NCBI RefSeq assembly: GCF_000337815.1
Contig: NZ_AOLN01000001.1
Span: 124,001 to 188,000 of the forward strand
Direction of reading: 5' to 3'
DNA length: 64,000 nucleotides
From: Haloferax mucosum ATCC BAA-1512
GTDB taxonomy: Archaea > Halobacteriota > Halobacteria > Halobacteriales > Haloferacaceae
The notes beneath the pieces are model-generated. The model did not search any database, was not told the origin of the DNA, and saw nothing but the letters and a program-made list of their open reading frames with translations. Within the stretch, counting starts at the first letter, position 1, and every line of letters begins with the position of its first letter. Positions 8,539 through 62,557 of this stretch are shown piece after piece. Made by a program: the position numbers and the translations under genes.

Positions 8539-8648
8539 CCTTCCGCGGTCCGCGGTCCGGGGTCTGGGCAGTGTCTCCTTCCGCGGTCCGGGGTCTGGGC
8601 AGTGTCTCCTTCCGCGGTCCCGGGTCGGGCAGTGCCCCCTTTCCCGGC
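8539..8648. repeat. Three-and-a-bit copies of a 31-bp GC-rich tandem repeat
   Basis: Units starting CCTTCCGCGGTCC lie at 8539-8576 (with a 7-base internal duplication), 8577-8607 and 8608-8637, followed by a partial degenerate fourth. The first two differ only by the duplication, the third by a few bases. They occupy the gap between the DUF4349 gene and ychF. There are no spacers, so this is not CRISPR. It looks like a minisatellite from replication slippage. Confidence 0.8.
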
Positions 8649-32922: not shown

Positions 32923-33094
32923 GACGGCGCGTTGGAACCGAACGGTATAGTCGCTTGCGGGACGACACGACCGCATTCGACACAGCGACACGACGGGACT
33001 GACGAGACAGCGACAAGACCGGACCCGACACGGCGACGAGACCGAATTCCAGAGGCGAACGAACTAAGCCGCCACGGGCGAATCACCGCGACAC

Positions 33095-59110: not shown

Positions 59111-59483
59111 TCACAGGGTCCAATTCATCCACGTTCTCGCATATGTTCGGTTGTGGGTATCGTTCCACTGCTCGCGCGCCGAGTTTCGTCCTCCGTGTTA
59201 CCCGACACAAAACCGCGACGCGCGCGGCGTTTTGCACCGCCTTCTGCGGCACATTCTCACCGGTTCGTGTGCGACACAACGCCAACCCAGAGATAATTGC
59301 CGGGTTATCTGAAAAACCACGAGAAGTGATTATAAAACTTTTCGGACTCTCTGAATCGTTTGTAAAACGTTACTAAAGAGAAACGTTCGGTGTCGGAGGT
59401 CCCTGAAGGGTCCGAAAAGAATGCGAATTCACGGTAACGCTCAACCCCTTATATGATGGTCCCCGTTCTATGCAGAAGTGACG
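59111..59483. other. Gap upstream of the 78-residue membrane protein, possible small RNA
   Basis: About 370 bases with no supported protein. An AT-rich box (GATTATAAAACTTTT, 59330-59344) is followed by repeated AACGTT sequences near 59366 and 59388 that may be a hairpin or binding site. TATA CTTATATG at 59448-59455 belongs to the gene that follows. A small RNA from about 59360 is possible but unproven. Confidence 0.35.
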
Positions 59484-59720
59484 ATGTCCGGAATCCCCTC
59501 CACGTCCGACTCGGTCACACTGGACTCTGCATCGACGCTCGGTCGCATCGCCTTCGAACCAGTCGAAACCATCGCGTTCTGGTCGGCAGTTGCGCTCCCC
59601 CTCGTGTACCTGCCCCTGCTCGCGGGCGGTTTCGAGTCAGGTCAATTCACTCTGTTCATCGGTCTAATCGCCCTCCACGTGGCTATGCTCGCTCTCGGAC
59701 GCGGGCACGGACAGGAGTGA
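59484..59720 (+). CDS. Two-helix membrane protein of 78 residues
   Basis: Starts MSGIPSTSDSVTLDSAST. Two hydrophobic helices (ETIAFWSAVALPLVYLPLLAGGF and FTLFIGLIALHVAMLALGRG) follow a polar N-terminus. A CTTATATG box centred near 59451 gives a transcript start at about 59478, where a GTG two codons upstream could also be the start. No family recognised. Confidence 0.7.
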   Translation: MSGIPSTSDSVTLDSASTLGRIAFEPVETIAFWSAVALPLVYLPLLAGGFESGQFTLFIGLIALHVAMLALGRGHGQE

Positions 59721-59900
59721 GACGACGGCGACACCGCGACGCGGACCGCGCTCGACTGCAACGCACGCCCCTCCCGGATTCGTCTCGGTACCCGCAGACG
59801 TCCCGGCCCTCCACACGTGGCGTCACCTCCCGCAACTCCTCGAATCGCACCCGACCGACCTGCCCCTCGTTCCCCTCCGGTTCCCCGCCCCCTATCTAAT

Positions 59901-59945
59901 CGCCCTCCCTGCCCAACCCCTCCCAACCCCTCCTCCCTGCCCAAC
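59901..59945 (-). repeat. Repeated G-run block, G-quadruplex-forming candidate
   Basis: On the minus strand this segment has eight runs of three or four Gs separated by one to five bases. It is built from repeats: CTCCCTGCCCAAC at 59905-59917 and 59933-59945 (plus strand), with CCCAACCCCT twice in tandem at 59912-59931. Runs of this spacing fold into G-quadruplexes in DNA or RNA. It lies 260 bases after the M50 protease stop on the same strand, so it could form in that transcript's 3' end. Confidence 0.65.
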
Positions 59946-59951
59946 TTTTTT
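59946..59951 (+). terminator. Run of six Ts, possible terminator of the 59484 gene
   Basis: TTTTTT follows the C-rich block directly. Archaeal RNA polymerase stops at U-runs, so a plus-strand transcript could end here. Inferred from sequence only. Confidence 0.35.
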
Positions 59952-60010
59952 ACTCATTCACTCGACCCTGTATCGTCCTCAATTGCCCTCGTCCCTCCGT
60001 GTATCCACGC

Positions 60011-60034
60011 TCACTCACTCACTCACCCACTCAC
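60011..60034. repeat. TCAC tetranucleotide microsatellite
   Basis: Several copies of TCAC, slightly interrupted, in the pyrimidine-rich gap. Uncommon in this genome's style of sequence and likely a slippage product. Confidence 0.6.
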
Positions 60035-60204
60035 ACGCCCTCCCCGACTTTTCTACTTCGACGTTCCCGTCACGTTCCCGAACCATCCCTCACGCCACAG
60101 CGGCGGCTCTTGGTCGGAGCATCCTTTCCGGACAGTCGAGGGCTGGTCGTTTCGAGTCCGCAAAAAGAGAGACCCGCCGAGAGACAAGAAGAACGCTCCT
60201 GCGC

Positions 60205-60828
60205 TCAGATGCCGACGAACAAGAGAAGCGCGACGGTGAGAACGACCGAGACGCCGAGAACTCCCCCGAAGACGGGCGTGCTCCACGCTTTGACCGTTCG
60301 GCCGTCGAGCGACCCGAAGGGAAGCATGTTGAACGCCGCGAGGAAGGCGTTGATAACCAGTCCTCGCGCGCCGACGAGTTGTACTACTTCGGACCCGCCG
60401 AGCAGGCCAACGACGTACACCGGCGCGAACGCGACGAGGAGAAGCAGGTTCGTCACTGGTCCGGCGAGAGCGATGAGACCGTGTTCGCGCTCGGTGAGCA
60501 TTCCGCGGTGGTAGACCGCGCCCGGCGCGGCGAAGATAAAGCCGATGAGCGCGCTCATGACGGCGATTCCGAGCATGCCGTAATCCGCGCGGAACTCGGC
60601 TATCTGGTCGAATCTGATAGCGACGACCTTGTGTGCGACTTCGTGGAGGAGGAACCCGACACCGGCGGTGAGCAGGCTCACGATAAGCGCGAGACCGAAC
60701 GACCCGTTCAGAAGTAATGCGAGCGCGCGATTGCCGCCACCGGCGAAGAAGATGGCGAACGCGAGTCCGAGCGCGAGCCACGCGACCACGAGGTCACGGA
60801 GTTCGCGCGAGGAGAACGTGACGTTCAC
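60205..60828 (-). CDS. M50 family membrane metalloprotease (site-2-protease-like)
   Basis: 207 residues with about five or six hydrophobic helices. The zinc motif is HEVAH (His62, Glu63, His66) inside the membrane helix; a third ligand, Asp175, lies in NMLPFGSLDGRTV. This is the minimal S2P fold, which cuts transmembrane segments of substrates such as anchored regulators. No PDZ or CBS domain. Its ATG overlaps the stop of the TraB-like gene by four bases, so translation is coupled. Confidence 0.92.
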   Translation of the reverse strand: MNVTFSSRELRDLVVAWLALGLAFAIFFAGGGNRALALLLNGSFGLALIVSLLTAGVGFLLHEVAHKVVAIRFDQIAEFRADYGMLGIAVMSALIGFIFAAPGAVYHRGMLTEREHGLIALAGPVTNLLLLVAFAPVYVVGLLGGSEVVQLVGARGLVINAFLAAFNMLPFGSLDGRTVKAWSTPVFGGVLGVSVVLTVALLLFVGI

Positions 60829-62504
60829 GTGAACGTCCTCCAGATGAGGTCGGCGCTGTTACGCGCGCCTTCGAACATCAGATTCGCCACGCCCGACGCG
60901 CCGCCGAGGTCGGCCGCGATGACGGGAATGACGTACGTCACGAAGAGGAAGCTTGCGATGATGCTCCCGATGTTCGTCATGGCGACGACCATGATGAGCT
61001 TGAAAAGCGGCACGTCGAGCATCTGCCCGACGAGTTCGGGAATCGGCGTCTCCTCGTCCGAGAGCAGTTCGTTGAGCGTCCCGATGTCGCCGACGTTGAT
61101 GGGCGTGTGCCGAAGTTCGACGTAGCCGGTGAACCAACCAGGTGCGAGAAGTGGGTTGATGGAAGTCATCCACGCGACGAGACCGCCGACGAGCGCGCCG
61201 CTCCAGCGCGCCCCGGCGACTTTGGCGAGCGTACCGGCGAAGAGACCATTGATGAGAAACCACGCACCGAAGATGGTCAGGAGGCGCTCGTTGCTGATGC
61301 CGGCCATCGCAAGGAGGATGAAAAAGCCGATGAAGACTGCAGTGACGCCGAATCCGATTAGCTTGCCCCACGGAAAGCCGTCTTTCTCGGCGACGCCGAC
61401 GAGCGAGTCCATCGGCGGCAACGTCTCCGGTTGCTGGAGGTAGTTTTCGATGCCGGCCTTGTGACCCGCGCCGACGACGGCGACGACGTCGGCTCCCGAC
61501 TGCCGGAGCGCGATGAGTTTGTGCGCGATATACGCGTCGCGCTCGTCGATGAGCGCCTCAGCGCCGCCGGGGCTGAACCGACGGAATTCCTCCATCATGG
61601 CGGAAACAACGTCGCCGTCGGTGAGGTCTGCCATCTCGTATTCCTCGTAGTCTTGGTCCTCCGCGGTGGGGGCGAACAGACCGAGGACGTTCAGTAGCGT
61701 TCCGGCAACGATGCCGACGACGACGCCGCTGAGAATCCCGATGACGAGACTGCCGACGATAGCGGTGCCGAGGTCCTTGAGAATCAGCGTGACGAGACCG
61801 GTTCCGACACCGAGACCGAAACTAAGGATGATACCCAGCGCCGCACCACCGCTGAGACCGGCAAGAAGTGCGTCGTCACCGTCGAGATAGAACGACGCGA
61901 CCGTATAGAGCATGTACGAGGTGGCCGCACCGACGACCGCGGCGGTGGCAGTTCGCGTCAGGATGAGGTCGGTGATACCGATAGCACCGCCGTAGAGACC
62001 CACGAGCGGGCCGAGAACGACGCCCGCGGCGATGCCGAACACGACGCCGACACCGCGAGCGTCCGCGAAGCCGAACAGCAACTCGCCGGCCATCTGCATC
62101 TTTTCGACGAGTCCCATCCGCCGCCAGAAGCGTTGGATGGTCGTCTGAATATTTCGGTCCACGAGCGCCACGTCGATGCCGTGTGACTCGGCGGTCTCGA
62201 CCGCGGCGAGCATGTCTGCACCGGGCTGTACGTCGAATTTTTCTCCCATCTGCGCTTGGACGTACGACAGCATCCAGTAGGCGATAAATTGGAAGACGGT
62301 GTTACCGCGAAGGAGGTCGCTCGCTTCGATATCTTCCGGGGACCCGCCTTTCAACTGACGATAGCGTCCTTCGTCGAGTTCGACCGCGACAACGTCCGGT
62401 TGCTCCGCTTCGATGGTCTCTTCGACCTCACGGACGCTGTCGGCCGAGACGTGGGCCGTGCCGACGACGCGGACGTGGCCCTCGCCGGGCGACGAATCGT
62501 TCAT
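60825..62504 (-). CDS. TraB/PrgY-type membrane protein
   Basis: 559 residues. The soluble TraB domain opens with VRVVGTAHVSADSVREVEE and includes VDRNIQTTIQRFWRRMG; VVAVVGAGHKAGIENYL follows later. Unusually, a cluster of hydrophobic helices (about 175-285) splits the domain, and a further four to six helices fill the C-terminal third. PrgY in Enterococcus limits pheromone activity, perhaps by proteolysis; the TIKI family shares the fold. Substrate unknown. The ATG at 62504 is fixed by the TATA-like box at 62528-62533. Confidence 0.88.
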   Translation of the reverse strand: MNDSSPGEGHVRVVGTAHVSADSVREVEETIEAEQPDVVAVELDEGRYRQLKGGSPEDIEASDLLRGNTVFQFIAYWMLSYVQAQMGEKFDVQPGADMLAAVETAESHGIDVALVDRNIQTTIQRFWRRMGLVEKMQMAGELLFGFADARGVGVVFGIAAGVVLGPLVGLYGGAIGITDLILTRTATAAVVGAATSYMLYTVASFYLDGDDALLAGLSGGAALGIILSFGLGVGTGLVTLILKDLGTAIVGSLVIGILSGVVVGIVAGTLLNVLGLFAPTAEDQDYEEYEMADLTDGDVVSAMMEEFRRFSPGGAEALIDERDAYIAHKLIALRQSGADVVAVVGAGHKAGIENYLQQPETLPPMDSLVGVAEKDGFPWGKLIGFGVTAVFIGFFILLAMAGISNERLLTIFGAWFLINGLFAGTLAKVAGARWSGALVGGLVAWMTSINPLLAPGWFTGYVELRHTPINVGDIGTLNELLSDEETPIPELVGQMLDVPLFKLIMVVAMTNIGSIIASFLFVTYVIPVIAADLGGASGVANLMFEGARNSADLIWRTFT

Positions 62505-62527
62505 CGCCGGGTGTACCGGCCCACGAC

Positions 62528-62533
62528 TTTTAT
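62528..62533. promoter_or_regulatory. Shared TATA-like box between divergent genes
   Basis: TTTTAT on the plus strand reads ATAAAA on the minus strand. Its centre is about 27 bases from the ATG at 62504 (minus) and about 27 bases from the ATG at 62558 (plus). One element is correctly placed for leaderless transcripts in both directions. Confidence 0.6.
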
Positions 62534-62557
62534 CCGTGTCGGCATCTCCCACGAATC

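Follow-up and report, generated by a model that had tools for sequence, protein, structure and literature searches.

The analysed window is a 64,000-nt stretch of DNA covering positions 124001–188000 of contig C1 from a 3.37-Mb Haloferax genome. Within it, a 484-nt convergent gap separates the stop of a small plus-strand gene (59720) from the stop of an M50-like peptidase gene read on the opposite strand (60205). The plus strand of this gap contains 44% C and 19% G. The features in and around it are collected in Table 1. Gene calls came from a simple codon-usage script and not from a published gene finder, a procedure that may miss small genes and misplace starts. This codon-based caller returned no hidden gene inside the gap, and a scan for promoters and terminators of the bacterial type gave no match at the G-run tract. 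The 80-aa membrane-like protein encoded by the small gene had no match in Pfam or NCBIfam; it is conserved beside the M50 gene in Haloferax, and Halogeometricum, Halobellus and Haloquadratum have weaker relatives in the same position.

Table 1. Features of the convergent gap and its flanking genes (positions in the window).
Feature	Positions	Strand	Basis or remark
TATA-box-like TTATATGA ahead of the small gene	59449–59456	+	Sequence; putative promoter element
Small gene coding for an 80-aa membrane-like protein, family unknown; Haloferax-conserved	59478–59720	+	Start possibly ATG 59484
Convergent gap, C-rich and G-poor; plus-strand C bias kept in 15 Haloferax species	59721–60204	+	Composition comparison
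Block GGATTCGTCTCGGTACCC downstream of the small gene, kept in most Haloferax	59776–59793	+	Sequence comparison
Unbroken G4Hunter region, minimum −2.40	59849–59951	−	G4Hunter
Quadruplex-prone G-run core: eight G-runs of at least three (C-runs on the plus strand)	59903–59942	−	Sequence, G4Hunter, run-cluster scan
10-bp tandem repeat CCCTCCCAAC, 2.6 copies	59907–59933	+	Tandem-repeat search
T6 run (TTTTTT) 226 nt past the small-gene stop, likely U-tract terminator of that gene	59946–59951	+	Putative role; motif type from PMC7237163
T5 run, 39 nt past the M50 stop, likely TraB–M50 transcript terminator	60162–60166	−	Putative role
M50-like peptidase gene, scoring under Pfam's curated cut-off	60205–60828	−	Pfam
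TraB/PrgY/gumN family gene, 4-nt overlap with the M50 gene	60825–62552	−	

A preliminary description of this DNA had reported eight minus-strand G-runs of three or more bases, built from short repeats and lying next to a T-run that serves the opposite gene. All three features were present. On the plus strand, C-runs of at least three begin at 59903, 59907, 59912, 59917 (four bases), 59922, 59927 (four bases), 59935 and 59940, placing all eight within 40 bp; the short repeat is the 10-bp unit of Table 1, and the T-run is T6. The quadruplex predictor proposed there, G4Hunter (25 nt), gave −2.40 at the tract, the strongest value of the window and also the strongest peak of the 364-kb contig, in which the next peak was −1.96. 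No other site of this contig packed eight runs of a single base into 40 bp, and all listed run clusters that did not overlap the tract spanned more than 100 bp. We then compared the tract with 2000 first-order Markov sequences drawn from the dinucleotide composition of the gap itself. Eight runs in 45 bp appeared in none of them, indicating that the run clustering is beyond chance. A peak of −2.40 or stronger was reached in 11% of the simulations, indicating that the C-rich gap largely accounts for the peak score. What is unusual at the tract is the gap's composition together with one local repeat. The window also has two tandem repeats of greater length, at 8549–8641 (three copies of a 31-bp unit, 93% alike) and 32963–33049 (3.7 copies of a 23-bp unit), which are unrelated to the tract.

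The tract conforms to the canonical G4 definition, with four G-runs of at least three, loops of 1–7 nt and a G4Hunter score above 1.2. In a folding model, the minus strand as RNA reached −61.9 kcal/mol with quadruplexes allowed, versus −8.5 kcal/mol otherwise. For the plus-strand RNA, the 101 nt around the tract had a folding energy of just −1.8 kcal/mol, and the whole gap gave −0.218 kcal/mol per nt, which matches the least structured among 69 of the organism's own gaps (−0.217). For H. volcanii, quadruplexes have been reported both in vitro and inside cells, and 25 of 36 tested sequences from this species fold as quadruplexes in vitro (PMC12873603). It is thus plausible that the tract also folds in vitro. 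It shares its genus and a positive G4Hunter score with the H. volcanii set, its score being well above the usual 1.2–1.4; however, the H. volcanii sequences are enriched upstream of transcription starts, with no 3'-end role given (PMC12873603), whereas the G-runs of the tract are on the template side of a 3' flank and are unconserved.

Both sides of the gap were matched in the same arrangement in all 15 Haloferax genomes. A check of G-run conservation found no convincing counterpart of the tract in the 14 other species. A canonical minus-strand G4 motif was present in the gap of seven of the 15 species (L001, L009, L061, L064, L066, L069, L071) and absent from eight, and the G4 strength of the relatives' gaps fell within the prediction from base composition, for which first-order Markov sequences were likewise simulated. 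These gaps are 240–520 nt long, differ in sequence and carry other short repeats, for example CCCAA or CCAACCTCAGCCCAACT. The plus strand showed a C bias in 15 of 15 gaps (skew 0.13–0.39), which starts at the stop of the small gene and fades or reverses toward M50. Thus, the gap is C-biased on the plus strand in 15 species while its sequence, including the G-runs, turns over fast. Judged by the C–G z-score against a background of only 364–400 kb per genome, the gap ranked 1/175, 1/176, 1/175 and 7/180 in four genomes; it was the strongest conserved skewed gap in four of the six genome pairs and the second and third in the remaining two. Gap skew in general correlates between species (r 0.31–0.75). 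Beyond Haloferax, the C bias of this gap was weaker, with a skew of 0.20 in Halogeometricum limi and 0.09 in Salinigranum, and in Haloquadratum it was reversed.

A separate block lies about 55 nt past the small-gene stop (59776–59824) and consists of GGATTCGTCTCGGTACCC followed by the arms GACGTC...GGCGTC (59797–59824). Unlike the remainder of the gap, this block is conserved across the 15 Haloferax species. Its arms can pair in nearly all 15 species, and the stems are long in L010, L013 and L063. The automatic alignment gave no covariation support for the arms, with no two-sided change; the consensus RNA fold had negligible energy, and single folds scattered (z +1.4 to −3.6). A second genomic copy of the block was sought and rejected, since the other matches look like chance.

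RNA ends in the intergenic regions of H. volcanii come after T-stretches; the median 3' UTR measures 97 nt when the first end is taken and 189 nt over all ends, and a length of about 100–200 nt is usual in Haloferax (PMC7237163). T6 is such a T-stretch, intergenic and sense to the small gene. The block had been placed at the end of the TraB–M50 transcript. This placement did not hold: T5, which follows the M50 stop by 39 nt, precedes the G-runs, which begin about 215 nt beyond it (from 60166–60162, minus strand) in the M50 direction. The proposal that a quadruplex ends this transcript was likewise unsupported, given the earlier sequence signal T5 and the lack of G-run conservation. What stood of the quadruplex claim is the predicted propensity (canonical motifs and folding model); the role at the TraB–M50 end did not. 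The lack of G-run conservation is the first half of the refuting condition given in the preliminary description, and the feature that is conserved is the C-richness of the opposite strand. The simplest layout would be two ordinary terminators, with the tract within the flank of the plus-strand gene, and the gap itself is presumably transcribed. The arrangement resembles the T-stretch termination described for H. volcanii (PMC7237163) and U-tract termination by aCPSF1/FttA (PMC8716108), in that T6 is sense to the small gene and T5 lies past the M50 stop; it differs from them in the long C-rich zone before T6, which does not belong to the published motif. At least seven relatives lack a T4 run on the plus strand of the gap, indicating that the U-tract end is not conserved.

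The strand bias was also seen genome-wide. In four Haloferax genomes, C exceeded G on the sense strand in the first 80 nt past stop codons (0.07–0.11), while the C/G skew upstream of divergent genes was near zero. Of the G4-prone blocks (score of at least 1.2) between same-direction genes of these genomes, 117 had C and 25 had G on the sense strand. The corresponding counts were 25 versus 29 upstream of divergent genes and 16 versus 14 between convergent genes, where a strand bias was absent. The same-direction excess was significant in each Haloferax genome alone (p 0.013 to 2e-7); the pooled p of 2e-15 for 117:25 overstates the evidence, as the four genomes share ancestry. No such excess was seen in two other genera of the family (25:19 and 20:17). 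Fourfold-degenerate sites also showed C over G, by 0.21–0.24 in Haloferax and 0.08–0.16 in the two other genera, suggesting that part of the C bias may be mutational. A regional, replication-linked skew was rejected, since the neighbouring gaps reached merely 0.04. We also considered whether C-rich flanks replace U-tracts; this was rejected, as C-skew had no link to the absence of a U-tract (Spearman −0.02, p 0.78, 304 flanks).

Two other gaps were recorded in this comparison. The convergent gap L179 (G010:C2, about 775079–775288) had a strong G/C strand bias, with a skew of −0.39 that is conserved in G007 (−0.55), and a G4Hunter score of +2.28; it is a mirror case, with the sense strand C-rich directly past the stop of a DsrE-like gene. 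The gap L153 (G000:C1 242321–242773), after an isopropylmalate-dehydrogenase-like gene, contains a microsatellite (GAATCT)n, and its H. elongans counterpart contains another, CTCACTCTCAG...; the sense strand of both is rich in pyrimidines.

Bacterial Rho utilisation (rut) sites are long, C-rich, G-poor, unstructured RNA. Use of Rho is not known from Archaea. The gap shares with rut sites a long sense RNA past a stop codon that is C-rich, G-poor and, by the folding model, weakly structured. A stronger C bias in flanks without a U-tract, as a zone replacing U-tracts would show, was not found among the 304 flanks; the comparison is a resemblance only. Our literature search found no termination factor with a preference for C-rich RNA and nothing direct on C-rich haloarchaeal 3' UTRs.

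On balance, and with some reserve, we favour the explanation that the block is the densest part of the C-rich, G-poor 3' flank of the small plus-strand gene and that the quadruplex-capable strand is a by-product. The small-gene transcript would cross the gap as a nearly structureless, C-rich 3' UTR ending at T6. Its composition would be kept at the RNA level, either as an open tail free of G-runs or as a substrate for termination or decay factors, and a lineage-specific expansion of short C-rich repeats would have produced the eight-run cluster. The G-rich strand would be the template for the small gene, hence missing from its mRNA, and the M50 mRNA would include the G-runs only upon read-through beyond its own T5. 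A quadruplex at the tract may form when the DNA is single-stranded; it is probably a by-product and no conserved feature of the locus. The unconserved U-tract, the missing link between C-skew and U-tracts, the balanced 16:14 count of convergent blocks and the C excess at fourfold sites speak against this explanation.

The minus-strand G-runs could instead act as a quadruplex, in RNA or in non-template DNA, that halts the TraB–M50 transcript or shapes its end. Quadruplexes form most easily on the non-template strand, which for M50 is the minus strand. The strong G4 prediction at the tract and the formation of quadruplexes in H. volcanii (PMC12873603) also agree with this role; however, T5 lies ahead of the G-runs, and the tract is unconserved, with no canonical motif in eight of 15 species, which makes such a role very unlikely. 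About as improbable, in our judgement, is a C-rich regulatory RNA from the plus strand, 3'-UTR-derived or independent, that pairs with G-rich mRNA sites. The predicted openness of the C-rich RNA, the conserved block near the small-gene stop and the nearly 2800 sRNAs of H. volcanii (PMC6560208) are consistent with it, but Rfam gave no match, the C-rich part is unconserved in sequence and the conserved block has a negligible consensus fold.

More weight, though still on the doubtful side, is due to a neutral origin, in which transcription-linked mutation bias toward sense-strand C and repeat slippage formed the gap, with no function in either strand. The C excess at fourfold sites, higher in Haloferax than in the two other genera, parallels the gap skews, these skews are in general moderately correlated between species, and the gap holds lineage-specific tandem repeats. 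However, the studied gap is far beyond its neighbours (0.39 versus 0.04 within 80 kb) and is still an outlier in four genomes despite sequence turnover. As an account of the mild trend across the genome, transcription-linked mutation bias is a serious rival; for this extreme gap it is less so.

Returning to the C-rich 3' flank, we suggest a wider reading only tentatively, as one joint claim that may well fail: that in Haloferax a class of sense 3' flanks that are long, C-rich, structureless and free of G-runs is kept as a functional signal at the RNA level, for termination, 3'-end processing or mRNA stability; that this gap is the clearest case, with composition kept and not sequence; and that quadruplex-capable template strands are the mirror image of such flanks. 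Because its C bias is kept across 15 species despite sequence change, the gap is a good place to test selection on composition in archaeal 3' flanks. Quadruplex surveys usually treat both strands alike in scoring. In the four Haloferax genomes, same-direction G4-prone blocks were template-side by almost five to one, suggesting that a G4 motif may reflect what the RNA needs or avoids, and not DNA structure.
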